Assembly (NCBI RefSeq): GCF_018131015.1
Contig: NZ_JAFCJJ010000007.1
Coordinates: forward strand, 186,001 to 250,000
DNA length: 64,000 nt
Reading direction: 5' to 3'
Source of the DNA: Bradyrhizobium diazoefficiens
GTDB taxonomy: Bacteria > Pseudomonadota > Alphaproteobacteria > Rhizobiales > Xanthobacteraceae
Position 1 is the first letter of the stretch; every line of letters begins with the position of its first letter. Of this stretch, positions 5,857 through 28,306 are shown piece after piece. Made by a program: the position numbers and the translations under genes. Below the pieces are notes generated by a model. That model did not search any database. It saw only the letters and a list, made by a program, of their open reading frames with translations, and was not told where the DNA came from.

Positions 5857-8517
5857 ATGGCTGAGAAGAACTGGCACGCTGACAGCACTATTCTGATTGC
5901 TGTGCAGGGCGTCGCGTGCCTGGCCGGAACGATGACGCCTGCGCGCGCCTTCGCAAGCGAGCTCGGCGCGCTCGATCCGGGCCTGATCTGGGAAGGCCTG
6001 ATCGGCGGGATTGTCCTCTGCTCGCTGCTGGCGGCCGCCGTGCTCTGGATTCATTCCGCACTGCGGCGCGCCAGGCGGTTGCAGTTGCGGCGCAATGCCT
6101 TCGTCTCCTCCGCCATGAACAATCTCAACCAGGGCGTGGTGATGACCGATGCGCAGCGGCGCATCATGTTCTGCAACGACCGCTATCTCGAGATCTACGG
6201 CCTGTCGCGCTCGGACCTGTGGACCGGCATGAACGGCCATGACCTGCTCAAGCTGCGTCGCGACCGCGGTGTTCTCGGCGTCTCCGACGACGACTTCTAC
6301 GAGAAGGCCTCGAGCGCCAACGGGCTGATCACCGAGTTGCCGGACGGGCGCTCCATCCTGGTGAAGTATTTCGTGCTGCCGAACGGCGGTTCGGTGGCGA
6401 CCCATCTCGACGTCAGCGAGCAGCGCAAGCTGTCTCGCCAACTCGCCTCCACCAAGCAGTTCCTGGAATCCGTGCTGGACAGCGTGCCGGCCTGCGTCGC
6501 CGCCAAGAACATCGAGGACGGCCGCTACATCTTCGCCAACAGGGCCTATGAGCAGTTCTGGGGCTTTTCACGGGATCAGGTCGTCGGCAAGAGCGCGCGC
6601 GAGCTGTTCACGCCCACCTCTGCGGCCAGCATCGAGGCGAGCGACCAGGCGGCGCTCAAAGCCCCCGACGGCCAGTACCGCAACGAATTCGAGGTCGAGC
6701 GCGGGTCGGCGCGCGCCATGGTCGCCTCGATCCGGATCGTGGTCCGCAACGAGCGCAACGAGCCCGAATTCCTGCTGCTGCTGTTCGAGGACATCACCGA
6801 CCGCCGTTCGCTCTCGCAGGAGCTGGAGAGCACCAAGAAGTTCCTCGAACTCGTCGTCGACAACATCCCGGTGGCCTTGATCGTCGAACAGGTCAAGGAC
6901 GGCCGCTATCTGCTGGCCAATCGCAGCGCCGAGACGATCCTCAACCGCAGGCGCGAGGAAGCCACGGGCCTGACGGCTTCCGACATCTTCAATGCCAAAG
7001 AGGCGAAGCTGATCATCGCGCGCGACGAGGCCGCGATCAAGAAGCGCGGGATGATCACCGAGGAGCATCCGATCTCCACCAAGGACGGCCTGCGGCTGTT
7101 CCTCACCCGGCGCGCCACCGTGCTGAGCGATGCCGGCGAGCCGCAATATCTGATCAAGACCCACGAGGACGTCACCGACCGCCGGCAGACCGAATCGCGC
7201 ATGGCACATATGGCCTATCACGATGGCCTGACCGACCTGCCGAACCGCGCCGCCTTCCTGCAGGCGCTGACCCAGATGATCGAGGCCTGCGAGGGCACCG
7301 GTGAGGAGTTCGCGGTCCTCAGCATCGACCTCGACGGGCTCAAGGAGGTCAACGACGTCTTCGGTCATGCGCTGGGCGACAAGCTCCTGATCGAGGTGGC
7401 CCAGCGGCTCCAGGACGTCGCACGCGGCGGCGTGGTGGCGCGCCTGTCCGGCGACGAGTTCGGTCTCATCATCGACGGCAAGCAGCCGGAGGCAGGCCTT
7501 GCGCTGGCGCAGCGGCTCGGCGAGGCCGTTGCCCAGGAATTCCACATCGATGGCCGCGCGGTGCGCGCCGGCGTCACCACCGGCATGTCGATCTTCCCGC
7601 ACAACGGCGCCGACGGCGCCTCGCTGCTCGCCAATGCCAGTGCCGCGTTGTTCCGCGCCAAGCAGAAGTCGCGCGGCACGATCAGGCTCTATCAGCCCGA
7701 GATGGACCAGCAGATCCGCGACCGCCGGGTGCTGCACCAGGATCTGTCGAAGGCGATCAAGAACGGCGAGCTGTCGCTGGCGTTCCAGCCGCAAGGCATC
7801 GCGCGTACGAGCGTCGCGGAAAGCGAGATCATCGGCTTCGAGGCGCTGGCGCGCTGGCAGCACCCGGTGCGCGGCCAGGTCTCGCCGGCCGAATTCATTC
7901 CGATCGCCGAGGAAAGCGGCCTGATCGTCGAGATGGGCGAATGGATCCTGCGCGAGGTCTGCCGCGAGGCGGCGTCCTGGCCAAAACCGCTCCAGGTCGC
8001 GGTCAATCTGTCGCCGGCGCAGTTCATGCACGGCGACGTGGTCGGGCTGGTCCATTCGATCCTGCTCGAGACCGGGCTGGCGCCGGGCCGGCTCGAGCTC
8101 GAAATCACCGAGGGCGTGCTGATCGAGGATTTCGACCGTGGCCTCGCCCTGCTGCGCCGACTCAAGGCGCTCGGCGTGCGCATCTCGATGGACGATTTCG
8201 GCAGCGGCTACTCCTCGCTGAGCTATCTGCAGGCGTTCCCGTTCGACAAGATCAAGATCGACCGCACCTTCATCATCAATCTCGGCCGCAATCCGCAATC
8301 GGCGGCGATCGTGCGCGCCGTGATCGACCTCGGCCACGGCCTCGAAATGTCGATCATCGCCGAGGGCGTCGAGACCATCGAGCAGCTCACCTTCCTCGCC
8401 AGGGAAGGTTGCGATGGCGTGCAGGGCTATCTGCTCGGCAAGCCCCAGCCGATCGGCCATTATGCCGGCCTCGTCGGCCGCGCCGAGAAAATGGAGCTGG
8501 CGCTCAAGACCGGGTAG
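5857..8517 (+). CDS. Membrane-anchored PAS-PAS-PAS-GGDEF-EAL protein (c-di-GMP turnover)
   Basis: 886 residues. A hydrophobic N terminus ending in AFA (about 34) resembles a signal peptide or first helix; a transmembrane helix spans about 46-66. Three PAS repeats begin near 85, 205 and 330 (each with NR/ND-x2-Y/A-E-x-lY/FWG-like cores). Then come a GGDEF domain whose signature is SGDEF (about 531) and an EAL domain from about 640. The EAL side is complete: FEALARW (about 661), NLSPAQF, LEITEG, MDDFGSGYSSL, KIDRTFI and AEGVET. The protein is therefore a likely c-di-GMP phosphodiesterase, with a GGDEF domain that may be active or only bind GTP. The PAS array suggests redox or ligand sensing, but no ligand is evident. 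Only about 15% of the protein precedes the PAS domains, so sensing is probably cytoplasmic. Confidence 0.92.
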   Translation: MAEKNWHADSTILIAVQGVACLAGTMTPARAFASELGALDPGLIWEGLIGGIVLCSLLAAAVLWIHSALRRARRLQLRRNAFVSSAMNNLNQGVVMTDAQRRIMFCNDRYLEIYGLSRSDLWTGMNGHDLLKLRRDRGVLGVSDDDFYEKASSANGLITELPDGRSILVKYFVLPNGGSVATHLDVSEQRKLSRQLASTKQFLESVLDSVPACVAAKNIEDGRYIFANRAYEQFWGFSRDQVVGKSARELFTPTSAASIEASDQAALKAPDGQYRNEFEVERGSARAMVASIRIVVRNERNEPEFLLLLFEDITDRRSLSQELESTKKFLELVVDNIPVALIVEQVKDGRYLLANRSAETILNRRREEATGLTASDIFNAKEAKLIIARDEAAIKKRGMITEEHPISTKDGLRLFLTRRATVLSDAGEPQYLIKTHEDVTDRRQTESRMAHMAYHDGLTDLPNRAAFLQALTQMIEACEGTGEEFAVLSIDLDGLKEVNDVFGHALGDKLLIEVAQRLQDVARGGVVARLSGDEFGLIIDGKQPEAGLALAQRLGEAVAQEFHIDGRAVRAGVTTGMSIFPHNGADGASLLANASAALFRAKQKSRGTIRLYQPEMDQQIRDRRVLHQDLSKAIKNGELSLAFQPQGIARTSVAESEIIGFEALARWQHPVRGQVSPAEFIPIAEESGLIVEMGEWILREVCREAASWPKPLQVAVNLSPAQFMHGDVVGLVHSILLETGLAPGRLELEITEGVLIEDFDRGLALLRRLKALGVRISMDDFGSGYSSLSYLQAFPFDKIKIDRTFIINLGRNPQSAAIVRAVIDLGHGLEMSIIAEGVETIEQLTFLAREGCDGVQGYLLGKPQPIGHYAGLVGRAEKMELALKTG

Positions 8518-8546
8518 CGGTTGGCATCACCGCCTGCGGATGTGAG

Positions 8547-8849
8547 CTAGACGGGGTCGCGCGCGCCCGGCATTCCTCCGGGATCACGGGCCCTGTGACG
8601 GATGGCGTGGATGATGATTTCCTGGCTCCCAATCTCGTAGAAAATGAGAAACGGATAGGGTGTCGTGGTCAGTCTCCGAATGTCCGGATCGTCGGTTCGG
8701 AGGCCTATCTCGGGATGTGCCAGCAACAGGCCGATGACGTCCTGAATGCGCTTTTGAACGCGCGCCGCTCCCTGCGGCGATGTAGCTGAAATGTAGGCCA
8801 ATATAGAATCGAGATCGGCCAGCGCCGGAAGCGTCTAGCGGATATTCAC
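8547..8849 (-). pseudogene. ParE/RelE-type toxin gene with amber stop at codon 5
   Basis: Read from a GTG at 8849 (which overlaps the antitoxin stop as GTGA), the frame gives V-N-I-R-stop-TLPALADLDSILAYI and then a full ParE-like body to 8547, about 100 codons in all. Family members usually have Trp at codon 5 (xxRWTxPALxDL), so TGG to TAG at 8835-8837 is the simplest reading. The conserved C-terminal part (YPFLIFYEI, IHAIRHRARDP) is intact. An internal TTG at codon 17 could give an 84-residue product lacking the first helix residues, but no good ribosome site precedes it. The toxin is probably inactive or strongly reduced. Confidence 0.75.
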
Positions 8850-9076
8850 AGGCCGTGTTTGGCCCAAGTCGCGCGGACTTGAGCCTCGGTTGCGAATTCG
8901 CCTCGCTTGGCTGCCTCCTTGGATACGGCAATCGCCGATCGTTCGTCACCTGAGAGAGGGACGGGAGAGGCCGCCTCTGCGCCTGCAAGTTGCAGCACGA
9001 TCCGCGCGATGTCGTCCTGCGCGTCCGAAGGCAGACTGCGTGCAATTTCCAGAGCCTGATCCAGCAGTTTGGTCAT
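8846..9076 (-). CDS. Antitoxin of a ParD/ParE-like type II toxin-antitoxin pair
   Basis: 76 residues, acidic and helical in the first half. The C-terminal RGEFATEAQVRATWAKHGL matches the toxin-binding tail of short addiction-module antitoxins that precede ParE-type toxins. The gene lies directly upstream of the toxin frame with a 4-bp GTGA overlap, the classic antitoxin-first order. The start ATG has only a weak ribosome site. With the toxin gene carrying a nonsense codon, the antitoxin is the only intact member and may survive as a leftover or a trans-acting antitoxin (inference). Confidence 0.75.
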   Translation of the reverse strand: MTKLLDQALEIARSLPSDAQDDIARIVLQLAGAEAASPVPLSGDERSAIAVSKEAAKRGEFATEAQVRATWAKHGL

Positions 9077-9197
9077 GCCGTAATCATACGCCGTTTGACG
9101 CCCGGCCTGAAGGCCAATTTGGGACGATCCACGCGAACCGGTTGAGCAAAGACCGATCCGCCGCTAGCGTGCGCCGGAATCGGGGTTGGCAGGTAAC

Positions 9198-10364
9198 ATG
9201 GCTGGACAGTTGCCCGGAACGGACATTGCCGCCGAAATGGCGGGCGTCAACGCGCATCCGGCGGCGGGTCAGCCGCTGCTGCGCATCGAGGGCGTGGCGA
9301 AGACGTTCGGGACCTTCCGTGCCGTGGACGGCGTCTCGCTCGACATCCGGGCCGGCGAGTTCTTTGCGCTGCTCGGGCCGAGCGGCTGCGGCAAGACCAC
9401 GCTGCTGCGCATGTTGGCCGGCTTCGAGGCGCCGGACGAAGGGCGCCTCCTGCTCGGCGGCACCGACATCGCGCAGGCGCTGCCGCATGAGCGTCCGATC
9501 AACATGATGTTCCAGAACTATGCGCTGTTTCCGCATCTTTCGGTGCGCGACAACATCGCCTTCGGCCTGAAGCGTGCACGGCTGGCGCGCGAGGAGATCG
9601 CCACCCGCGTTGCGGAGATGGTCGCGCTGGTGAAGCTCGAGGGGCTGGAGCAGCGCAAGCCCGACCAGCTTTCCGGCGGCCAGCGCCAGCGCGTGGCGCT
9701 GGCACGCGCCTTGGCGCGCAGGCCGCAGCTCCTGCTGCTCGACGAGCCGCTCGCAGCGCTGGACAAGAAGCTGCGCGAGAGCACGCAAGGCGAGCTGATG
9801 GAGCTGCAGCGCCGGCTCGGCATGACCTTCATCGTCGTCACCCACGACCAGGAAGAGGCGATGACGATGGCAAGCCGGATCGGCGTGATGAACGCCGGCA
9901 AGCTCGTCCAGGTCGCGACCCCGCGCGAGCTCTACGAGGCGCCGCGCTCGCGCTGGATCGCGCAGTTCGTCGGCGACATCAACCTGTTCGACGGCGAGCT
10001 GACGCAGCGCGACGGCGATCGCCTGGTCATCGCCACGGGGGGCGCGGGCACGCTGATAGCCGCGGCGGCGCGCGAGCCCGCGGGCGGGACAAGATTGTCG
10101 GTCGCGGTCCGCCCCGAGAAGATCAGGCTGTCGCGCCGCGGCACGGAGAGTGAGCATGCGGCGCCGATCAACCGGCTGGACGGCGTGGTTGCTGACGTCT
10201 GCTATCTCGGCGGCACCACCACCTACAAGGTGAGGCTCGATGCCGGCGGCATGGTGCAGGCCTCGCTCGCCAACAGCGCGCGGCGCGATGCCGATGCCTA
10301 CGGCCCGGGCCAGCCTGTCGTGGCCGCCTTCGCGCCCGACGACTGCGTGGTGCTGGAACGATGA
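9198..10364 (+). CDS. Spermidine/putrescine-type ABC transporter ATP-binding protein (PotA-like)
   Basis: 388 residues from the ATG at 9198; a TTG four codons earlier is less likely. Nucleotide-binding domain: Walker A GPSGCGKT (about 60-67), signature LSGGQRQRVALARAL (about 158-172), Walker B LLLLDEPLAALD and the switch His in VTHDQEEAM. A C-terminal TOBE region (about 290-388) is typical of the PotA/FbpC group. It energises the two downstream permeases, with the first of which it overlaps by 4 bp (ATGA). No binding-protein gene is adjacent, so the substrate (polyamine, other small cation or opine) cannot be read from the locus. Confidence 0.92.
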   Translation: MAGQLPGTDIAAEMAGVNAHPAAGQPLLRIEGVAKTFGTFRAVDGVSLDIRAGEFFALLGPSGCGKTTLLRMLAGFEAPDEGRLLLGGTDIAQALPHERPINMMFQNYALFPHLSVRDNIAFGLKRARLAREEIATRVAEMVALVKLEGLEQRKPDQLSGGQRQRVALARALARRPQLLLLDEPLAALDKKLRESTQGELMELQRRLGMTFIVVTHDQEEAMTMASRIGVMNAGKLVQVATPRELYEAPRSRWIAQFVGDINLFDGELTQRDGDRLVIATGGAGTLIAAAAREPAGGTRLSVAVRPEKIRLSRRGTESEHAAPINRLDGVVADVCYLGGTTTYKVRLDAGGMVQASLANSARRDADAYGPGQPVVAAFAPDDCVVLER

Positions 10365-11275
10365 GCGCGCGCCGCATCTTCGCGCGACCGGCGCGCTTTG
10401 CCGCGATCGCCCCCTATGTCTGGATGGTGCTGTTCTTCCTGGTGCCGTTCGGCTTCGTGCTGAAGATCAGCCTGTCGCAGACCGCGATCGCGCAGCCGCC
10501 CTACGAGCCGGTGTTCGACCTGACGGCGGGATGGGCGGCGATAAGAGCGGCCTTCGCCGCATTGGGAATCGACAATTTCAGGCTGCTCGTCTCCGACGAC
10601 CTCTATGTGTTCGCCTATCTGCGCAGCCTCACCGTCGCCGTGATGTCGACCGCGCTGCTGGTCCTGATCGGCTACCCCATCGCCTATGGCATGGCGCGTC
10701 TGCCTCGGCGCTGGCACGCGGTGGCGATGGTGCTGGTGATCGTGCCGTTCTGGACCTCGTTCCTGATCCGCATCTACGCCTGGATCAACATCCTCCAGCA
10801 CGACGGCCTGCTCAACCAGATCCTGATGGCGCTGCACCTGGTCAGCCAGCCGGCGGTGTGGCTCTCCACCGACGCCGCGATGTATATCGGCATCGTCTAT
10901 TCCTATCTGCCGTTCATGATCCTGCCGCTCTATGCCACGCTCGCCAAAATGGAGCCGGCGCTGGAGGAGGCGGCCGGCGATCTCGGCGCACCGCCCTGGC
11001 AGGTGTTCTGGCTCGTCACCTTCCCGCTGTCATTGCCGGGGGTCGGCGCCGGCGTGCTGCTGTGCTTCATCCCGATCGTCGGCGAGTTCGTCATTCCGGA
11101 TCTTCTGGCCGGCTCGAATTCGCTGATGATCGGCCAGACCCTGTGGCTCGAATTCTTCACCAACAAGGACTGGCCGGTGGCTTCCGCCGCCGCCATCGTG
11201 CTGCTGCTGGTGCTGCTGGTGCCGCTGCTGCTGTACGAGCGGCTGCAGAAGCGTCAGCTCGAACAGGGGCGGTGA
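10361..11275 (+). CDS. ABC transporter permease, PotB-like
   Basis: 304 residues with six predicted transmembrane helices, the first at about 16-38. The cytoplasmic loop EEAAGDLGAPPWQVFWLVTFPL carries the EAA motif that docks on the ATPase. Large N-terminal periplasmic loop, as in PotB. The start overlaps the ATPase stop by 4 bp, and the stop is 3 bp before the next permease, so the three genes form a tightly coupled operon. Likely heterodimer with the downstream PotC-like protein; substrate not determined. Confidence 0.92.
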   Translation: MSARRIFARPARFAAIAPYVWMVLFFLVPFGFVLKISLSQTAIAQPPYEPVFDLTAGWAAIRAAFAALGIDNFRLLVSDDLYVFAYLRSLTVAVMSTALLVLIGYPIAYGMARLPRRWHAVAMVLVIVPFWTSFLIRIYAWINILQHDGLLNQILMALHLVSQPAVWLSTDAAMYIGIVYSYLPFMILPLYATLAKMEPALEEAAGDLGAPPWQVFWLVTFPLSLPGVGAGVLLCFIPIVGEFVIPDLLAGSNSLMIGQTLWLEFFTNKDWPVASAAAIVLLLVLLVPLLLYERLQKRQLEQGR

Positions 11276-20343: not shown

Positions 20344-20531
20344 TCACGACCGCACCGTCCAAGCCTTCTCCAGCCGTGCCATCAAGGACGGCTCTTCGCG
20401 CACCAGGCGAAAGCCGATATTGGTAGGCGGGACACCCGCCGCGCAGCCGCCGGCCCTTGCGTCGCGGATGAAGTCGGTGATGTAGGCGCGGTGGAGCCCT
20501 TGCGCCGTCAGGCTGTTTCTGCTGCAGTTCC
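20344..20531 (-). pseudogene. 3' fragment of a nirV-like (formylglycine-generating-enzyme family) gene
   Basis: Encodes only the C-terminal about 62 residues of a SUMF1/FGE-fold protein, including HRAYITDFIRDARAGGCAAG and GFRLVREE, and ends in a stop. It is a near copy of the end of the intact nirV at 26271-27155. Over 20396-20495 against 26335-26434 I count 7 mismatches in 100 bases. No start codon, signal peptide or N-terminal part is present, and homology stops near 20531. It is a remnant of a duplication that now bounds a two-gene cassette. Confidence 0.85.
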
Positions 20532-20573
20532 ACGCATGGCTACGTCCAAAGATTGCAGGCTTGGACTCGACCG

Positions 20574-22100
20574 ATGAGCTGGAACGCGGGCTATGTCGCC
20601 GACATCGGCTACACGGCCGGATTCTATCGCGAGACCGCGCCCGGCCACATGGCCTTCGCGGCGCTCGCGACCGGCCGCTCGCCGGGCCGCGCGCTGCGCC
20701 CGCGGCGCGTGCTGGAGCTCGGCTTCGGCCAGGGATTTGGGCTGGCGCTGCTCGCCGCGGCAAACCCCGACGTCGCCTTCGAGGGGTTTGATTTCAATCC
20801 GGAGCACGTCGCCAACGCGCGCAAGCTGATCGAGGGTGCGCAGCTTTCTAATGTCATGGTCACCGAGACCGGGTTCGAGGAGGCCGCCGCGCGCGGCGGC
20901 GCCAATGATCTCGACATCGTCGCGGCGCACGGCATCTTCAGCTGGGTGGCCCGGCCAGTCCAGGACGCCATCGTCGCAATCCTGCGTCAGCGGCTGCAGC
21001 CGGGCGGCCTCGCCTATGTCTCCTATAATTGCATGCCGGGCTGGGCGCCGCTGCAGCCGATCCGCCAGCTGATGATGCAGGTCAAGCGCCGCAATCCCGG
21101 CCACTCGGACCGCCAGCTCGCGCTCGGCCTCGATTTGCTTTCGAAGCTGCGGCAGAGCAACGCCGGCTATTTCGCCGCCAACCCGGCCGCCGCAAGACAT
21201 GTCGACGCGATGCTTGCGATGGACCGCGTCTATCTCGCCCACGAATATCTCGATGAGCATTGGGACCTGTTTCAGTTCGCCGAGATCGCCGCGCGGTTGG
21301 CCGACGCCAAGCTCGCTTTTCTCGCATCCGCCACCCTGTCGGAGAATCTCGACCGCTATGCCGTGCCCGCCGCGCTGGCGCCGTTGCTCGCCGGGATCGA
21401 CGACCCCGAGCTGAAGGAGACCGTGCGTGACTATGCGGCCAACAAGCAGTTTCGGCGCGATCTGTTCGCGCGCGGCAGCGGTGAACTGACCGCGGGCGAA
21501 CACCTGCGCCTGCTGGCGCAGTTGAGCTTCGTACTCGCGGTGTCGCGCACGCGGGTGCGGTTCATGTTCCAGGGCCCGGTGGCTCAACTCAACGGCATGC
21601 CCGAGCTCTACCAGCCGATCGTCGACCTCCTGGCAAAGGGCATCGCCACCTTCGACGCGCTGCTGGCGTTGCCGGTGTTCGGCCCGAGCAATGCCGCGAT
21701 CCTGCTCGATTGTCTCACCCTGCTGGTCGAATCCGGCCAGGTGCTGCCGGTGATCGGCCCGGCGGCCGACGTGGCGCCCGCAAAACGCTTCAACCGTATG
21801 ATCGTCGCCCAGGCCCGCGCCGGGCGCGTGCACGGCAGCCTCGCTTCGCCGGTGGCGCGGACCGGGATCCCAGTGAGCGATTTCGGATTGCTCGCGCTCG
21901 CTGCCCTGTTCGATGGCATGGAGGACGCTGGGGCCGCGGCGGAGCACGCGATGTCGATCCTCAAAGCCCTCGGCCGGCGGCCGTTCAGGGAAGGCAGGCT
22001 GATCGAGGACGATCGCGAAGCAACTGGCTTCCTCGCCGAGAATTTCCAGCCTGTCCTGGAGGAGGCCGTGCCGGTCTGGCAGCGCCTCGGGATGATCTAG
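20574..22100 (+). CDS. SAM-dependent methyltransferase with regulatory domain (protein-lysine methyltransferase-like)
   Basis: 508 residues from the ATG at 20574. An N-terminal class I methyltransferase fold has the SAM loop RVLELGFGQGFG (about 45-56), the acidic FDFNPEHV after strand 2, and AAHGIFSWV (about 123-131), a motif I associate with methyltransferases followed by a 'methyltransferase regulatory domain' (PF10119 type). Residues about 220-508 are helical and contain that middle and C-terminal part. As I recall, the rickettsial enzymes that methylate lysines on the autotransporter OmpB share this architecture. The next gene, same strand, encodes an autotransporter, so a protein substrate on the cell surface is a reasonable hypothesis. 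No signal peptide: it would act before export. Family assignment is fairly sure, substrate is inference. Confidence 0.82.
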   Translation: MSWNAGYVADIGYTAGFYRETAPGHMAFAALATGRSPGRALRPRRVLELGFGQGFGLALLAAANPDVAFEGFDFNPEHVANARKLIEGAQLSNVMVTETGFEEAAARGGANDLDIVAAHGIFSWVARPVQDAIVAILRQRLQPGGLAYVSYNCMPGWAPLQPIRQLMMQVKRRNPGHSDRQLALGLDLLSKLRQSNAGYFAANPAAARHVDAMLAMDRVYLAHEYLDEHWDLFQFAEIAARLADAKLAFLASATLSENLDRYAVPAALAPLLAGIDDPELKETVRDYAANKQFRRDLFARGSGELTAGEHLRLLAQLSFVLAVSRTRVRFMFQGPVAQLNGMPELYQPIVDLLAKGIATFDALLALPVFGPSNAAILLDCLTLLVESGQVLPVIGPAADVAPAKRFNRMIVAQARAGRVHGSLASPVARTGIPVSDFGLLALAALFDGMEDAGAAAEHAMSILKALGRRPFREGRLIEDDREATGFLAENFQPVLEEAVPVWQRLGMI

Positions 22101-22328
22101 CGCTACTGCCACCGCAACGTTGCGCTGCGACCCTCCCCCTCCGGTGCGCTCCAGGGGACGGTGCCAGCGGCGCCCGTTCAGCGCGATTTTCCGCCTTACG
22201 GTGTGGCATATCCGTGACTCCGGGCGGGATTCCGGCGGGGGTTCCCAAGACCCGCTACCAAGCGGTCGGGCCCGCCGTTAGGCTGGAACCCCGGGAGCGC
22301 GACAACGCGCCAAGACGGGGTTGGGGAG

Positions 22329-25300
22329 TTGGAGGCGCGGGTCGCACATCGGGCTGGCGTCGGCGGCAGCTGGGCGGATGATCCGCGCCAGGCCCGGCTG
22401 ATTGCTATTGTCCGGCCGCAACTGCAGCCCGCCTCCCGCCGCCGCACGGCGTGGCTCACCGGGGCCTCGCTTGGCATTATCGCGCTCACCGGCGTTCCGC
22501 CCCGCGCGTTTGCCGCCTGCCTCGGCGAGAATAGCGCGAGCGTTACCTGCGACGCGACGAACCAGGCGAGCGCTGGCACGCTGGTCACGAGCTTCGCCGG
22601 CACCACCATGGTCAACGTCAATGCGGGCGGCAAGATCGACACCGGCGGCGCCAGCGCGACGGTGAGCGCGGCCGGCTCGCTCACCTTCAACAACAACGAT
22701 CCCACGTTCGGAATCACCAACCAATCCGGCACCGGCGTCGCGCTTGCCAATGATTTCGGCGCGATCACCTATGCGGGATCGGGAGCGGTGACGGCAACCA
22801 GCACAGTGCCGGTCGCAGGCTTGAGCGCGACCAGCAATGCCGCCACTGGCGGCATCAATCTGACCACCGGCGGCCCCATCAGCGTGACGACCTCGTTTGG
22901 GGCGACTGCCATCAGCGCCGCGATCAACAACGCCGCCAACGCCAGCGCTATCTCCGTTCAGATCGACAATAGTGTCAACGTCACGTCATTGTCCAAGAAC
23001 ACCGCCGTGGACGTCAGTACGAGCGGCCTTGGCGGCATCACCGTGACCGACAACGGCGTTATCACCACCAATTTCAATGCCATCAATGCCTGGATATCCA
23101 ATTCCGCCAACGCCAGCGCGCTGACCGTTCATGTCAACAACGACACCTCGGGCTTCATCAGAGCACAACACGACGGAACCGGCAGCCTGCTGATCGACAG
23201 CACGGGCTCTGTCGGCGGCATCTTCGCCCTGGGCAACGGAGATGTCACGGTGAAGGTCTCGAACGACGTCAGCGGAGCGCCCAGCGATGCGGTAAGCGCA
23301 CTCATTGGTTCGTCCACCAGTACCGGCACGCTCGCCGTCAGTGTCACCAAGGGAAACATCACCGCAGGTCTCGGCGCCGGCAAAGTCTTCGGTCCGGGTA
23401 ATGGAATCCTCGCCAGCACGGCGGGTCTCGGGACAACCAGTGTGACGTTGTCGTCGGCCCCTGTGGTAAGCGGGGCGATCGGCATCCTGGCTTCGGCCAC
23501 CAACGCGTCCAGTACCGCCGATATCATCGTTTCCTCGGATGCCACGATCACGGGGATTGCGAGCGGCGGCGGCAAAGGCGGCAAAGGCGGCAAGGGCGGC
23601 TTTGGGGGAAGTCCGTACCATGAATTCGACGCTGCGGGCCTGGCGACAACAGGCGTCGGTATCGGCGTGTCGCATTCCGGCACCGGCAATATCAGAGTCA
23701 CCACCGGCGCCAGTTCGGCGATTGTCGCGGATTCTGTCGGTATCCAGCTCCTGAGCGGCGGGGCGGCGATGCAAAGCGGCGGCAACATCAGCGCCACCAT
23801 CGGCGGGACCGTGAACGCCGGCGGCAGCATAGGCTCGGAGGTCGGCGTCCTGTTCTACGGCGGCACCGCCAACACGCTGACCAATACCGGTCTGATCAGC
23901 GGCGCGACCGGCGTTCGGACGATCGGCGGCTCCGTCACCGTTGACAATGCTGGCCTGATCACCACGTCGAATGTCATTGCCGTGCAGCTCGGCGGGTCCG
24001 GCAACGTCTTCATCATGGATGGCCCGAACGCGGCACTGGGCGGTCTCGCGGTCGGCAGCGGCAACGACACCTTCCGCCTCGCCGGCACCGGCGCCAACAC
24101 TTTTGACGTCAGCCGGATCGACACCGGCTGGACGTCGCTGGAGAAGACCGGGTCGTCGACCTGGACGCTGACCGGCACCAGTGCCTACTCGGGCAGCCTC
24201 GTCGTCTCAGCAGGCACGCTGTTGCTGACGGGCGCGGGTAACCTTGGCGCCGTGACCAACACGCTGACCATCTCCGGGGGCACGCTCGATCTCGGCGGCA
24301 CCACGCAGACTCTTGCAGCCCTGAGCCTTGCCGGCGGCACACTTCAAAACGGCAATCTGAATGCCCCGGTGAACTCAACCGGCGGCACCATCAGCAGCAT
24401 CGGCGGCAGCGCGAGCCTCACGACCACAGCTGGCATCACCACGCTGTTCGGAATCAACGCCTACACCGGCGCGACCACCGTCAATGGCGGCGTGCTCGAT
24501 GTCGAAGGCAGCATCACCGGGACCTCGTCGCTGTCAGTCAATGCCGGCGGCGTCCTGATGGGTGCTGGTATCATCGATCCATTGACCGTCACGTTGGGCA
24601 GCGGCGCGACCTTCGCCCCAGGCAACGGCGCGCCGGGGTCCTCGACAAAGATCATCGGCGATCTCGCCTTTCAGGCCGGTGCGGCCTATTTGGTGCAGGT
24701 CAATCCGTCGGCGGCGAACTTTGCCGGCGTCACCGGCACCGCGATGCTTGGCGGCGCCACGGTCGATGCCGTGTTTGCCAGCGGCAACAGCATTTCAAAG
24801 CAATACACGATCCTGACAGCGAGCGGCGGCGTGTCCGGCACCTTCGGCTCGCTCGTCAACGTCAATCTGCCGAAGAATTTCAGCGACACGCTCGGCTACG
24901 ACGCCACCCACGCCTATCTCAACCTGACACTCGATTTCGGCAACTCGAACAATCTCAATCGTAACCAGCAGGCCGTCGGCAATGGCCTGAGCAGTTTCTT
25001 CAACGCAAACGGCAGCATCCCGCTAGTGTTCGGCACGACGACACCTGCTGGATTGACGCAATTCTCCGGCGAAAGCGCGACCGGCTCGCAGCAGAGCACG
25101 TTCCAGGCGATGAGCGAGTTCATCAACCTGCTCACCGATTCCTTGTTCGGACGCGGCAACCGCTTCAACGGCGCGAGTTCACCTGCGGGCTATGCGGACG
25201 AGGAGAGCGCCAGCAGCTACGCCGCAACGAAGCGGCTGGCGCGCGAGCGCGGCGCCTACATGGCATTCACCAAGGCGCCGCTGGCAAGAAGCTACGAGCC

Positions 25301-26147
25301 GCGCTGGAGCGTGTGGGTATCGCCTTTTGGCGGCGCGCAATCGACGAGCGGGAACGCGAGTCTGGGCTCCAACGACGCCTCCAGCCGCATCGCCGGTATG
25401 GCGGTCGGCGCCGACTATCTGTTCTCGCCGAACACACTCGCAGGCTTCGCGCTGGCGGGGGGTGGCACCAGCTTTGCCGTCAACAATCTCGGCTCGGGCC
25501 GCTCCGACCTGTTCCAGGCAGGTGCTTACGTACGCCACGCCAGCGGCCCCGCCTACGTCTCGGCCGCGCTGGCCTATGGCTGGCAGGACATCACCACCGA
25601 TCGCACCGTGGCCATCGCCGGCTTCGATCGCTTACGCGCCGAGTTCAACGCCAATGCGTGGTCGGGGCGGGTGGAGGGCGGCTACCGTCTGGTCGCTCCG
25701 GTTGCCGGCGGCATCGGCGTCACGCCCTATGCGGCGGCTCAGTTCACCTCATTCGCTCTGCCGGCCTATATTGAGCGGGCCGTCGTCGGAACCAACCTGT
25801 TCGCCCTAGGCTACAATTCGCGAACGGTTACCGACACGCGCAGCGAACTCGGCGTGCGCAGCGACAAGTCCCTCGCGCTGCAGACGGCGATCCTGACGCT
25901 GCGCGGCCGCTTCGCCTGGGCCCACGACTTCAACCCGGATCGCGCGATCGCCGCCACGTTCCAGACGCTGCCCGGCGCGTCCTTCGTTGTGAACGGCGCT
26001 CGCCAGGCCAGCGATGCCGCGCTGACCACCGCTGCGGTCGAGGCGAAATGGCTGAACGGCTGGTCCGCGGCGGCAAGCTTCGAAGGCGAGTTCTCCTCGG
26101 CCACGCGATCCTACGCGGGCAAGGGCGTTGCCCGCTATCAGTGGTGA
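22329..26147 (+). CDS. Autotransporter (type Va secretion), large beta-helical passenger
   Basis: 1272 residues from a TTG at 22329; no ATG occurs in frame until after the signal peptide and no good ribosome site precedes the TTG, so the start is uncertain. A long basic N region precedes a signal peptide (about 38-62, ending RAFA-ACLG). The mature N terminus has two Cys (about 64 and 74). The passenger (about 63-950) is Gly/Ser/Thr/Asn-rich with repeated short strands, fitting a beta-helix. Three Gly-Gly-Lys repeats lie at Lys416, 419 and 422. LEKTGSSTWTLTG and SGGTLDLGGTTQTLA are passenger-associated repeat motifs. The barrel (about 990-1272) starts WSVWVSPFGG and ends in the aromatic VARYQW. 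Likely a surface adhesin. Follows the methyltransferase gene by 228 bp. Confidence 0.88.
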   Translation: MEARVAHRAGVGGSWADDPRQARLIAIVRPQLQPASRRRTAWLTGASLGIIALTGVPPRAFAACLGENSASVTCDATNQASAGTLVTSFAGTTMVNVNAGGKIDTGGASATVSAAGSLTFNNNDPTFGITNQSGTGVALANDFGAITYAGSGAVTATSTVPVAGLSATSNAATGGINLTTGGPISVTTSFGATAISAAINNAANASAISVQIDNSVNVTSLSKNTAVDVSTSGLGGITVTDNGVITTNFNAINAWISNSANASALTVHVNNDTSGFIRAQHDGTGSLLIDSTGSVGGIFALGNGDVTVKVSNDVSGAPSDAVSALIGSSTSTGTLAVSVTKGNITAGLGAGKVFGPGNGILASTAGLGTTSVTLSSAPVVSGAIGILASATNASSTADIIVSSDATITGIASGGGKGGKGGKGGFGGSPYHEFDAAGLATTGVGIGVSHSGTGNIRVTTGASSAIVADSVGIQLLSGGAAMQSGGNISATIGGTVNAGGSIGSEVGVLFYGGTANTLTNTGLISGATGVRTIGGSVTVDNAGLITTSNVIAVQLGGSGNVFIMDGPNAALGGLAVGSGNDTFRLAGTGANTFDVSRIDTGWTSLEKTGSSTWTLTGTSAYSGSLVVSAGTLLLTGAGNLGAVTNTLTISGGTLDLGGTTQTLAALSLAGGTLQNGNLNAPVNSTGGTISSIGGSASLTTTAGITTLFGINAYTGATTVNGGVLDVEGSITGTSSLSVNAGGVLMGAGIIDPLTVTLGSGATFAPGNGAPGSSTKIIGDLAFQAGAAYLVQVNPSAANFAGVTGTAMLGGATVDAVFASGNSISKQYTILTASGGVSGTFGSLVNVNLPKNFSDTLGYDATHAYLNLTLDFGNSNNLNRNQQAVGNGLSSFFNANGSIPLVFGTTTPAGLTQFSGESATGSQQSTFQAMSEFINLLTDSLFGRGNRFNGASSPAGYADEESASSYAATKRLARERGAYMAFTKAPLARSYEPRWSVWVSPFGGAQSTSGNASLGSNDASSRIAGMAVGADYLFSPNTLAGFALAGGGTSFAVNNLGSGRSDLFQAGAYVRHASGPAYVSAALAYGWQDITTDRTVAIAGFDRLRAEFNANAWSGRVEGGYRLVAPVAGGIGVTPYAAAQFTSFALPAYIERAVVGTNLFALGYNSRTVTDTRSELGVRSDKSLALQTAILTLRGRFAWAHDFNPDRAIAATFQTLPGASFVVNGARQASDAALTTAAVEAKWLNGWSAAASFEGEFSSATRSYAGKGVARYQW

Positions 26148-26270
26148 AGGCTCTCGCTGCAAGCATGCCAAAGGCCGGCAGCGGCACGGGCGCAGCGGAA
26201 CCTCGGACATCTTTTCCGCTCGCTGCGTTGCGGCTATGCTCGTAGTGCCTTTCAGGAACAGCAGCGAAAT

Positions 26271-27155
26271 TTACGACCGCGCCGACAGCGCCTTGCTCAG
26301 GCGCTGGGTGGCGCCGGCGACCCAGGAGGTCTCCTCGCGCACTAGGCGAAAGCCGAGATTGGTGGGCGGTACACCGGCCGCGCAGCCACCGGCCCTTGCA
26401 TCGCGGATGAAGTCGGTGATGTAGGCGCGGTGGACGCCCTGCGCGACACGGACGCCGCAATTGATCCTGTCGCGCGCGCTGTCACCGCGCTCGTCGAGCT
26501 GTGAGCGCACGAAGCAGGTCGAAGTCCATTCCCAGACATTGCCGGCGAGATCGGCGACGCCGTGCTCGTTGAGGCCGAAGCGGCCGAACGGGGAGGGCGC
26601 CGTGTCGGAGATGTCGCGGTCGGACTCGCGCTCGTAGCGGCTGATCCAGCGTTTTGCAGGATCGTTGGCGTCGACGGGTAAACCATCGTCCTTGAACCGG
26701 CTGCCCGCGGCATAGGCCCATTCCTCGTCGCTCGGCAACCGGTAATGCACGCCGGTCTTGCGCGACAGCCAGCCGGCATAGGCGTTGGCATCGTGCCAGC
26801 TCACCTGCACCGCCGGGCGGTCGAGCGCGATCACCACGCCGCGGTCGAAATCGCGGCAGGCGCCGTCCTGCACGCAGAGCTGATAGTCGGCGGACGACAC
26901 CTGGTGCCGCATGATGTGAAGCTGCTTCTTGAACTGCACGTTGCGAAGCGGCGCCTCCGCCTGGCGGCCGGCGCGGGTGAAGTCGCCCGCCGGGCGATAG
27001 ACCAGACGGCCGGGCTCGATCGCGACGACCGCGGGCTCGCTCGAGATCGCGCCGCTGCGCGAGGCGACGTCGGAGACCAGCGGGGCGACCGCGATCGGTC
27101 CGAACAGACCGGCGACGCAGGCTGCCGCAACCTTGAGCTTGAATGCGATCAACAT
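26271..27155 (-). CDS. nirV: NirV, formylglycine-generating-enzyme-family protein of the nitrite reductase locus
   Basis: 294 residues from the ATG at 27155, with GGGAG at good spacing. An N-terminal hydrophobic signal (about 5-25) is followed by the FGE/SUMF1 fold: VSWHDANAYAGWLSRKTG (about 140-157), YRLPSDEEWAYAAG, VADLAGNVWEWTSTC and the C-terminal GFRLVREE. It is 54 bp downstream of nirK on the same strand, the usual nirK-nirV order. Role of NirV is not established; a function in nitrite reductase maturation or electron supply has been assumed from linkage. A hairpin in the gap probably reduces read-through. Its 3' end is duplicated at 20344-20531. Confidence 0.9.
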   Translation of the reverse strand: MLIAFKLKVAAACVAGLFGPIAVAPLVSDVASRSGAISSEPAVVAIEPGRLVYRPAGDFTRAGRQAEAPLRNVQFKKQLHIMRHQVSSADYQLCVQDGACRDFDRGVVIALDRPAVQVSWHDANAYAGWLSRKTGVHYRLPSDEEWAYAAGSRFKDDGLPVDANDPAKRWISRYERESDRDISDTAPSPFGRFGLNEHGVADLAGNVWEWTSTCFVRSQLDERGDSARDRINCGVRVAQGVHRAYITDFIRDARAGGCAAGVPPTNLGFRLVREETSWVAGATQRLSKALSARS

Positions 27156-27175
27156 GGTGAACTCCCGAAAGAGGA

Positions 27176-27200
27176 AGGGGCCGGTGGTGTGCCGGCCCCT
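27176..27200 (-). terminator. Hairpin between nirK and nirV
   Basis: Perfect 9-bp stem AGGGGCCGG/CCGGCCCCT around a 7-base loop in the 53-bp nirK-nirV gap; on the minus strand it is followed by TCCTCTTTC. Fits a partial terminator or a stabiliser of the nirK message. Confidence 0.6.
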
Positions 27201-27208
27201 CGTCGTTG

Positions 27209-28306
27209 TCAGTTGGTCTTGACAGGTGGGATGTCGGCAGGCGCCTTCACCTGGGTCATCAGGTCGTCGTTCCACTTGCCTTCCACCTTGAAGTGCGCGG
27301 TGGCGCCGAGATTGACGGCCTCGATCAAATTATGCGTCACATAGGCGTAGATGCCCGGCTGCATGAACTTGTACATCGCAGCTCCCGCCGAACCGCCGCG
27401 GATGAACCAGGTCTCGAGCCCGACTTCCGGCGCGTTGCCGAACTTGCCGGTCTCCCAGACATAGTCGCCATGGCCGCCGATCAGGTGCGGACGGCTGTCG
27501 CGGTTGGCCTGCGAATGCACCAGCAGCACGTTCTCTCCGACGCTGGCCGTCAGGGCGTTCTTGCCGGTGAGCGAGCCGGCCTTGCCGTTGAACACGACGT
27601 GGGAGGGGATCAGCTTCTTCATCACCTCTTCGGTGTCGGTGTAGGCTTCGCCCGGCGAGTCGTAGGACTTGAAGTTGCCCTTCTCGTCGCGAGGCACGTA
27701 CATGTCCTGCTCGCCGATGTAGTAGACCTTGTCGTATTTCAGCGCCTTGCCCTTGCCGTCGTTCAGGCCGTCACGCGGCAGCACCATCACGGCGCCGTTC
27801 ATGCCGGAGACGACGTGCCAGGGGATCATCGGACCGCCCGGTGCGCAGTGATAGACGAACACGCCGGTCTTGGTCGCCTTCCAGCGCAGCACCACCTGCT
27901 CGCCGGGATTGACCAGCGTGAGCTCGGCGCCGCCGAGCGCGCCGGTCGCGGAGTGGAAGTCGACATTGTGCGGCATCGAGTTGGTGGACGGATTGACCAG
28001 CGTCACCTCGACATAGTCGCCTTCATGCACGACCATCAGCGGGCCCGGCATCGAGCCGTTGAAGGTCATGGCCTGGAAGGTCGTGCCCTTGTCGTCGATG
28101 ACGACCTTCTTCTCCTGGACGGTGAGCGTGAATTCCATGATCTTCGGCGACTGCTTGGTCGCCTGCTCGTGCGCATGCACGAAGGGCGGCGCGACCAGCT
28201 CGACCTTCTGGCGCGGCAGCTTGAGGTCGTCGGCGGCAAGCGCGGGAACCGCCAACATCAAGGAGGTCACTGCGGCGCTGATTAATGCGGCTCTGCGGGT
28301 GAACAT
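27209..28306 (-). CDS. nirK: Copper-containing dissimilatory nitrite reductase NirK
   Basis: Reduces nitrite to nitric oxide in the periplasm, the defining step of denitrification; a trimer with type 1 and type 2 copper. 365 residues from the ATG at 28306, which sits 8 bases after AAGGA; an ATG three codons upstream overlaps that site. The N terminus FTRRAALIS... is a twin-arginine-like signal ending ALAA. Ligands are all present: PHNVDFH gives type 1 His113, catalytic Asp116 and type 2 His118; [14 protein letters not shown] gives His153, Cys154, His164 and then Met169; later PSHVVFNG and [11 protein letters not shown] supply the substrate His and third type 2 His. Class I short NirK without heme or cupredoxin extensions. 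A FixK/NnrR-type site lies upstream at 28368-28381. Confidence 0.97.

Follow-up and report, generated by a model that had tools for sequence, protein, structure and literature searches.

What is the role of a methyltransferase gene that lies directly upstream of an autotransporter gene? The question is raised by a locus of Bradyrhizobium diazoefficiens within a 64,000-nucleotide stretch of contig NZ_JAFCJJ010000007.1 (the whole stretch is called the window), from a 7.1 Mb genome, in which a methyltransferase of 508 aa and an autotransporter of 1272 aa are encoded on the same (+) strand with 228 bp between them. The methyltransferase frame extends from an ATG at 20574 to a stop at 22100 and the autotransporter frame from a TTG at 22329 to a stop at 26147, the start codon of the latter being uncertain, as TTG 22329 is the earliest start available in its frame. 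A preliminary description, made from the sequence alone, had given the coordinates, lengths and strand of both genes correctly and had proposed that the enzyme modifies its neighbour. On balance, we favour the interpretation that the two genes constitute a mobile modification pair, in which a cytosolic enzyme methylates the autotransporter before export.

The methyltransferase contains class I methyltransferase domains at residues ∼45–155 and PF10119 at 217–300 (E 3.2e-25), and the motifs ELGFGQG and AAHGIFSWV, previously listed for it, are both found. The top PDB sequence matches are the rickettsial protein lysine methyltransferases PKMT2 (E 5.5e-24) and PKMT1 (E 1.5e-22), aligned over residues ∼11–300, with the next chain at E 0.0085. 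An AlphaFold model built from 55 sequences (mean predicted local distance difference score, pLDDT, 94.9; predicted template modelling score, pTM, 0.93) retrieves rickettsial PKMT1 or PKMT2 as all of the top eight Foldseek chains (E 9e-25 to 5dnk). In VIA-align the model superposes on 5do0 with Z 29.0 over 453 of 508 residues (model residues 13–508) and on the rickettsial PKMTs overall with Z 26.7–29.0 over 452–454 residues. The next-best fold is Rv2067c (8hkr, titled an H3K79 methyltransferase), at Z 23.2 over 344 residues with the alignment ending at model residue 393; it is described as a protein that is secreted into macrophages and acts on histone H3. Below it come other methyltransferases, many acting on small molecules, with Z scores of 17.8 or less, mostly over residues 1–304 with a few rows to ∼390, in a list which re-ranks a Foldseek preselection, such that a family absent from it is not thereby excluded. 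The second half, initially described as long and helical, is mostly helices in the model but includes some strands.

The Asp and His that contact S-adenosylmethionine (AdoMet, SAM) in RpPKMT1 (D102/H146) are retained as D73 and H119 in a hand-mapped alignment, H119 being invariant and D73 present in at least 90% of the 55 sequences. The enzyme thus displays the features of an outer membrane protein lysine methyltransferase (OM PKMT), namely a class I AdoMet domain followed by PF10119, the whole-chain architecture including the C-terminal half, and the Asp/His pair, and the architecture common to rickettsial PKMT1 and PKMT2 had been correctly recognized. From the modelled fold and by analogy with two published systems, it is predicted to be a cytosolic, SAM-dependent protein lysine N-methyltransferase. 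O- or N-methylation of a small molecule or surface glycan would be compatible with an N-terminal domain of the common class I fold and with an Azospirillum relative located among glycosyltransferase and gmhA genes, but is highly improbable, as protein lysine methylases match the chain along its full length and small-molecule enzymes score far lower; a closer kinship to the latter, which would have told against the original proposal, was not found.

Likeness to the rickettsial enzymes does not extend to subtype. PMC11784438 recognizes two clusters of OM PKMTs, R (rickettsial) and A (KmtA), reports that a Leu and an Ile close to the cofactor (L103/I130 of RpPKMT1) are important to R enzymes in recognizing OmpB but are not conserved in KmtA, and gives Cyanobacteria and Rhodobacterales as examples of groups found solely in cluster A. 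In the hand-mapped alignment these positions correspond to F74 and F101 of the window enzyme, F101 being invariant and F74 present in at least 90% of the 55 sequences. PF21782 (PKMT_2nd, the C-terminal domain) gave no match in the window enzyme at E ≤0.01; it is present in a paralog of the same genome (L033, contig C33) and in two enzymes of other genera (L317, L319). Assignment to the R subtype was ruled out on these two grounds. In a tree of 34 sequences, a branch 3.41 long (support 100/100) separates the window type from both the C33 type and the rickettsial PKMTs. The window type has members in Cyanobacteria and Rhodobacterales. Because the Leu/Ile pair is absent as in KmtA, the tree separates the types and such members are included, the window enzyme probably belongs to the KmtA-like (A) subtype, in a tree that does not contain KmtA itself. 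D286, F293, R294 and D296 are invariant in the region corresponding to the KmtA charged motif, in a comparison from which the KmtA sequence is absent. Thus, the earlier suggestion of a rickettsial-type enzyme stands for the architecture but not for the subtype.

The proposed substrate is classified as a type Va autotransporter by its C-terminal PF03797 beta-domain and a repetitive passenger with PATR repeats. It contains 17 lysines, 14 of them in the passenger, the composition of which is 1.5% K and 1.4% R. The paucity of lysines and the Gly-Gly-Lys (GGK) cluster remarked on previously are both present, the cluster comprising lysines 416, 419 and 422, but they do not constitute a lysine signature. 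Lysine content of the passenger was the highest in an initial set of 14 autotransporters, but when 20 further homologous autotransporters brought the set to 34 it ranked 4th, with no unusual enrichment, and the signature was dropped. GGK occurs four times in the window autotransporter and at most once in each of the 33 others, and its abundance was traced to the 9-bp tandem repeat encoding the cluster. Methylation of the passenger would not require the cluster, because PMC11784438 reports that neither published system has a consensus motif.

Both genes sit in one 5.8-kb inserted unit (20506–26316), because two ∼121–128 bp copies of the 3′ end of a nirV-like gene flank them and relatives are without them at this place. 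Methyltransferase or autotransporter DNA was absent beside the nirV-like 3′ end in 14/14 relatives examined (blastn, E ≤1e-10). The left flank of the window was found in 13 of the 14, the exception (L230) being a short contig, and lies within ∼0.5 kb of the nirV-like gene in 11 of these 13; in L237 and L238 other genes, spanning 3.0 and 1.5 kb, are situated between the two, and the GNAT gene itself is unaligned in several relatives. The repeat copies are each 80–87% identical to relatives and merely 88–89% identical to each other, and one probably arrived with the insert because they differ to this extent. The gene at whose 3′ end the insertion lies, intact in the window, encodes an FGE-domain protein, which we take to be nirV, the neighbouring copper oxidase gene presumably being nirK. 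A foreign base composition was considered and gave no signal (GC 0.662 versus 0.644–0.658 in the flanks). No recombinase was noticed among frames of at least 100 aa within the insertion, for which no profile search was made. As a separate observation, other genes occupy the same place in L237 (9706–12675) and L238 (11535–13077), which points to a possible hot spot for insertions.

Whether this arrangement recurs was assessed in two samples which were drawn differently and may share organisms. Sample 1 comprises the best 80 of at least 586 loci plus 24 order and genus loci (104, or 105 with the window), reduced to 88 by dropping 17 near-identical loci. Genes were scored as surface-like by a crude compositional rule (length ≥400 aa, G+A+T+S+N+D+V ≥60%, R below 8%). 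The nearest upstream gene is surface-like at 16/83 loci and the nearest downstream gene at 4/83, compared with 4/69 and 0/70 of genes at least 3.5 kb upstream and downstream, respectively, the far-downstream set being scored by composition alone, without Pfam. Upstream enrichment is therefore evident (16/83 versus 4/139 far genes, p 1.1e-4). With distance, upstream counts are 16/83 (<600 bp), 2/34, 4/54, 1/71, 6/96 (4–6 kb) and 1/115, and downstream counts 4/84 followed by 0/449; in the unreduced 104 loci, near, middle and far genes are surface-like in 24/306, 5/284 and 8/613 cases. By Pfam, the nearest upstream genes encode RTX (8/83), DUF4214 (6/83) and autotransporter (2/83) proteins and the nearest downstream genes DUF4214 proteins (3/83); RTX accounts for 3/69 of the far-upstream set, in which DUF4214 and autotransporter are not among the best 25 of 109 families. 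Autotransporter neighbours are found at L071 (with a DUF4915 gene between), L074 and L114 (both divergent), and counts made with our own beta-domain hidden Markov model are too low, as it missed the PF03797 of L074. On the enzyme tree the linked label is carried by 22/88 rows and requires at least 17 changes, so that linkage, judged from this tree, has arisen or been lost many times.

Among the loci kept, the four nearest relatives of the window enzyme, like that enzyme itself, each lie 71–228 bp from a repeat-rich surface-like protein. The closest relative (L110, an alphaproteobacterial metagenome-assembled genome, 56% identity) adjoins a giant protein with a cadherin domain. The other three (44–47% identity) are from Methylobacterium, with a DUF4214 protein by Pfam as neighbour in M. 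planeticum (L079, L081) and, in M. soli (L080), a surface-like protein that carries three RTX-like motifs. In Caulobacter segnis (L104) the enzyme (8995–10515) is 78 bp downstream of an RsaA_NTD protein (6866–8917, E 3.1e-58), an isolated case because an RsaA_NTD survey matched 0/385 class genomes; the contig carries another A-type gene at a distance of ∼42 kb (L093).

Sample 2 consists of PF10119 loci not picked by likeness to the window. PF10119 is present in 42/289 Alphaproteobacteria genomes at 55 places, from which 51 loci were counted by excluding the window and contig-end fragments in G568 and G752 and treating two G611 genes as one locus; the own-genome paralog is one of the 51. The gene directly upstream (<600 bp) is surface-like or an autotransporter at 9/51 loci, compared with 9/355 genes at least 3 kb off to either side (p 7.9e-5), and such a gene occurs within 1.6 kb at 11/51. 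At L317 and L319, from two other genera, the enzyme is of the R subtype with PF21782 and lies 68 and 93 bp downstream of an autotransporter on the same strand; at L296 and L297, from one genus, it lies ∼1.4 kb upstream on the same strand, where long frames run into PF03797. These four loci with an autotransporter within 1.5 kb compare with 0.15–0.21 expected (p 2e-5 to 7e-5, from a rough chance estimate assuming a span of 7–10 kb); counted as three independent cases, p is 5e-4 to 1.3e-3, and for the two closest alone 0.01–0.02. In G795, of the same genus as L296 and L297, no autotransporter is seen on a contig that stops 2.2 kb beyond the enzyme, and in G752 an autotransporter ∼8 kb from the enzyme was left uncounted. 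Type VI secretion genes are found within 3 kb at 5/51 loci.

A plasmid collection gave 26 matches in 72,556 records, and eight of the 26 neighbourhoods were read. Ruegeria sp. TM1040 has, in order, an RTX protein, the enzyme, DUF6447, a type I secretion ATPase and HlyD; in Rhodospirillum rubrum an M10 C-terminal-domain protein is directly downstream of the enzyme; in Sulfitobacter a DUF4214 gene is 1.4 kb upstream; and in Aureimonas the enzyme is in a type VI secretion cluster. The Azospirillum brasilense plasmid (L181) carries a 40% identical enzyme among glycosyltransferases, gmhA and other methyltransferases, not directly beside a surface protein, and the other three neighbourhoods have no such annotated neighbour within 1.3 kb. 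The Methylobacterium, C. segnis and Ruegeria loci resemble the window in having the same enzyme type beside a large secreted surface-like protein, but differ in that the partner is of the type I secretion kind whereas the window partner is an autotransporter; RTX, DUF4214 and RsaA-type proteins presumably leave the cell by that route, as is usual for these families.

Linkage of the enzyme family to autotransporters and surface-like proteins is thus above chance, yet partial: the expected linkage in other genomes is borne out in both samples, while roughly three in four relatives lack a neighbour of this kind. The enzyme probably methylates its neighbour, because its relatives adjoin surface proteins more often than chance. 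Several observations weigh against this conclusion. No surface-like or autotransporter gene is present within 1.6 kb at 40/51 loci of sample 2, and 66/88 loci of sample 1 are without the linked label; surface-like genes are also somewhat common 4–6 kb upstream; relatives of the enzyme also occur in type VI secretion and glycosyltransferase clusters; and the lysine content of the passenger is ordinary. Related autotransporters, mostly by C-terminal-half alignments, occur in 119/146 genus genomes at E ≤1e-60, and two further ones are found in the same genome, whereas the closer, long-matching enzyme type (E ≤2.7e-51) is restricted to 5/146 including its own, the other four being 34–36% identical. 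Four enzyme-bearing genomes (G416, G297, G498, G410) gave no PF03797 match at E ≤1e-5. At E ≤1e-10, 24/146 genus genomes match the enzyme, the remaining matches being 26–30% identical over the N-terminal part alone, and an order scan at E ≤1e-40, with three candidates scored per genome, matched 22/397 with a best identity of 38% besides the own copy. Only the window copy adjoins an autotransporter in the genus sample, and recurrence of the pair in the genus is not supported.

Alternatively, the genes might merely have travelled together, adjacency being a by-product of insertion and the role of the enzyme unrelated. The restriction of this adjacency to the window copy in the genus sample, the 228-bp gap between the genes, which may not be co-transcribed, and the other neighbours of most relatives are consistent with this, but we regard it as clearly improbable, given family linkage above chance in two samples and its spread across the enzyme tree. 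An alternative that is rather unlikely, but less easily set aside, is that the enzyme is a protein methyltransferase that acts chiefly on some other protein of the cell surface or of secretion, the autotransporter being a secondary target or none. The fold is not bound to autotransporters, because relatives have RTX, DUF4214, RsaA-type or type VI secretion neighbours or belong to genomes with no PF03797 match, and according to PMC11784438 the rickettsial enzymes methylate further outer membrane proteins too. Against it, enzyme and autotransporter share one insertion in this genome, and each of the four nearest relatives has a large surface-like neighbour.

In the favoured interpretation, that of a mobile modification pair, an OM PKMT-fold lysine N-methyltransferase in the cytosol would use SAM to methylate lysines of the unfolded autotransporter, and perhaps of other surface proteins, which it would bind ahead of export. 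Methylation would occur at several places without a strict motif, and the passenger, once methylated, would be exported and displayed; by analogy with AtaA, the effect may be a tuning of the amount of the protein at the surface. Gene linkage of this kind has a parallel in Salmonella, where fliB is near the flagellin gene. FliB, mentioned in PMC11784438 for methylation of flagellin, is likewise a lysine methylase of a surface protein, but with flagellin as its target. The same source reports that in Acinetobacter sp. Tol 5 the trimeric autotransporter AtaA is methylated by KmtA, the second case of multiple lysine methylation of an outer membrane protein after OmpB; a term search of its text found no statement of gene linkage. 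The two systems share a PKMT-family enzyme without the rickettsial Leu/Ile pair and an autotransporter-family target; they differ in that AtaA, an adhesin of the trimeric autotransporter kind, has 234 lysines whereas the window target is type Va with 17. With PKMT1/PKMT2 and OmpB (5dnk, 5do0, 5doo, 5dpl) the window pair has in common the full-length fold, PF10119-type architecture, AdoMet Asp/His residues and an autotransporter partner, and is distinguished by Phe in place of Leu and Ile, the lack of PF21782 and the long branch.

Methylation of autotransporter-type surface proteins by this enzyme family is known already (OmpB, AtaA). Three points appear to be new: the occurrence of enzyme and autotransporter genes as a linked pair within a single insertion; the association of autotransporter genes with enzymes of either subtype; and, for the A subtype, neighbours that are RTX or DUF4214 proteins and, in one case, an RsaA-type protein. 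The earlier statement that no such pair is described in Bradyrhizobium-like bacteria agrees with the openly licensed literature, in which no report was found that joins lysine methyltransferase, autotransporter and Bradyrhizobium, but it had left the Acinetobacter precedent (PMC11784438) unmentioned. In the same literature no report was found that joins protein lysine methylation, type I secretion and surface layer (S-layer), no paper contains ‘PF10119’, and ‘methyltransferase regulatory domain’ occurs in one Dickeya genome paper. More tentatively, and with somewhat less than even confidence, we suggest that OM PKMTs of both subtypes may provide a general, secretion-route-independent lysine methylation of surface-coat proteins before export (autotransporters, RTX/DUF4214 proteins and RsaA-type S-layer proteins), often as linked mobile pairs, with OmpB representing one specialised use. 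The requirement of OmpB for the Rickettsia parkeri S-layer, recently reported in PMC13337285, fits such a wider tie to surface coats. Little is known of the role of multiple outer membrane protein lysine methylation outside pathogens, and through gene linkage candidate pairs of enzyme and substrate can be listed for testing in harmless bacteria of soil and water, among them pairs with proteins of type I secreted and S-layer kinds. Coordinates at the locus are collected in Table 1.

Table 1. Features of the methyltransferase-autotransporter insertion and its borders in the window.
Feature	Coordinates	Strand	Basis
Methyltransferase with PF10119 (OM PKMT-like, probably A subtype), 508 aa	20574..22100	+	Pfam, PDB sequence search, AlphaFold model, fold search
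Type Va autotransporter, 1272 aa, proposed substrate	22329..26147	+	PF03797 E 7.1e-47, PATR
Autotransporter beta-domain, residues 995–1251	25311..26081	+	Pfam
Gly-Gly-Lys cluster of passenger, residues 416–422, 9-bp tandem repeat	23574..23594	+	
Intergenic gap, without sigma-70 consensus or terminator-like site in scan	22101..22328	.	
Left copy of nirV-like 3′-end direct repeat, insertion boundary	20378..20505	.	88–89% identity to 26317–26444; matches nirV-like 3′ end of relatives
Right repeat copy, within intact nirV-like gene	26317..26444	.	
FGE-sulfatase domain protein (nirV-like), insertion site, adjoins copper oxidase gene	26271..27275	-	PF03781 E 1.7e-44; conserved in relatives

A further association of the family is with type VI secretion. 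In the openly licensed literature no paper was found that brings together a methyltransferase and lysine methylation with Hcp and type VI secretion. The own-genome paralog (L033) is 2.9 kb from a ClpV-type ATPase gene, and its genus relatives are beside ClpV, TssF or Hcp (L034 and L037 by Pfam, others by eye). By the presence of ClpV, TssG or TssF, PF10119 genes in or near type VI secretion clusters are L033, L034–L038, L308, L310, L315 and L323, and a component of this system could possibly be methylated. These genes are of both subtypes, R in this genome and its genus relatives and A in other genera.

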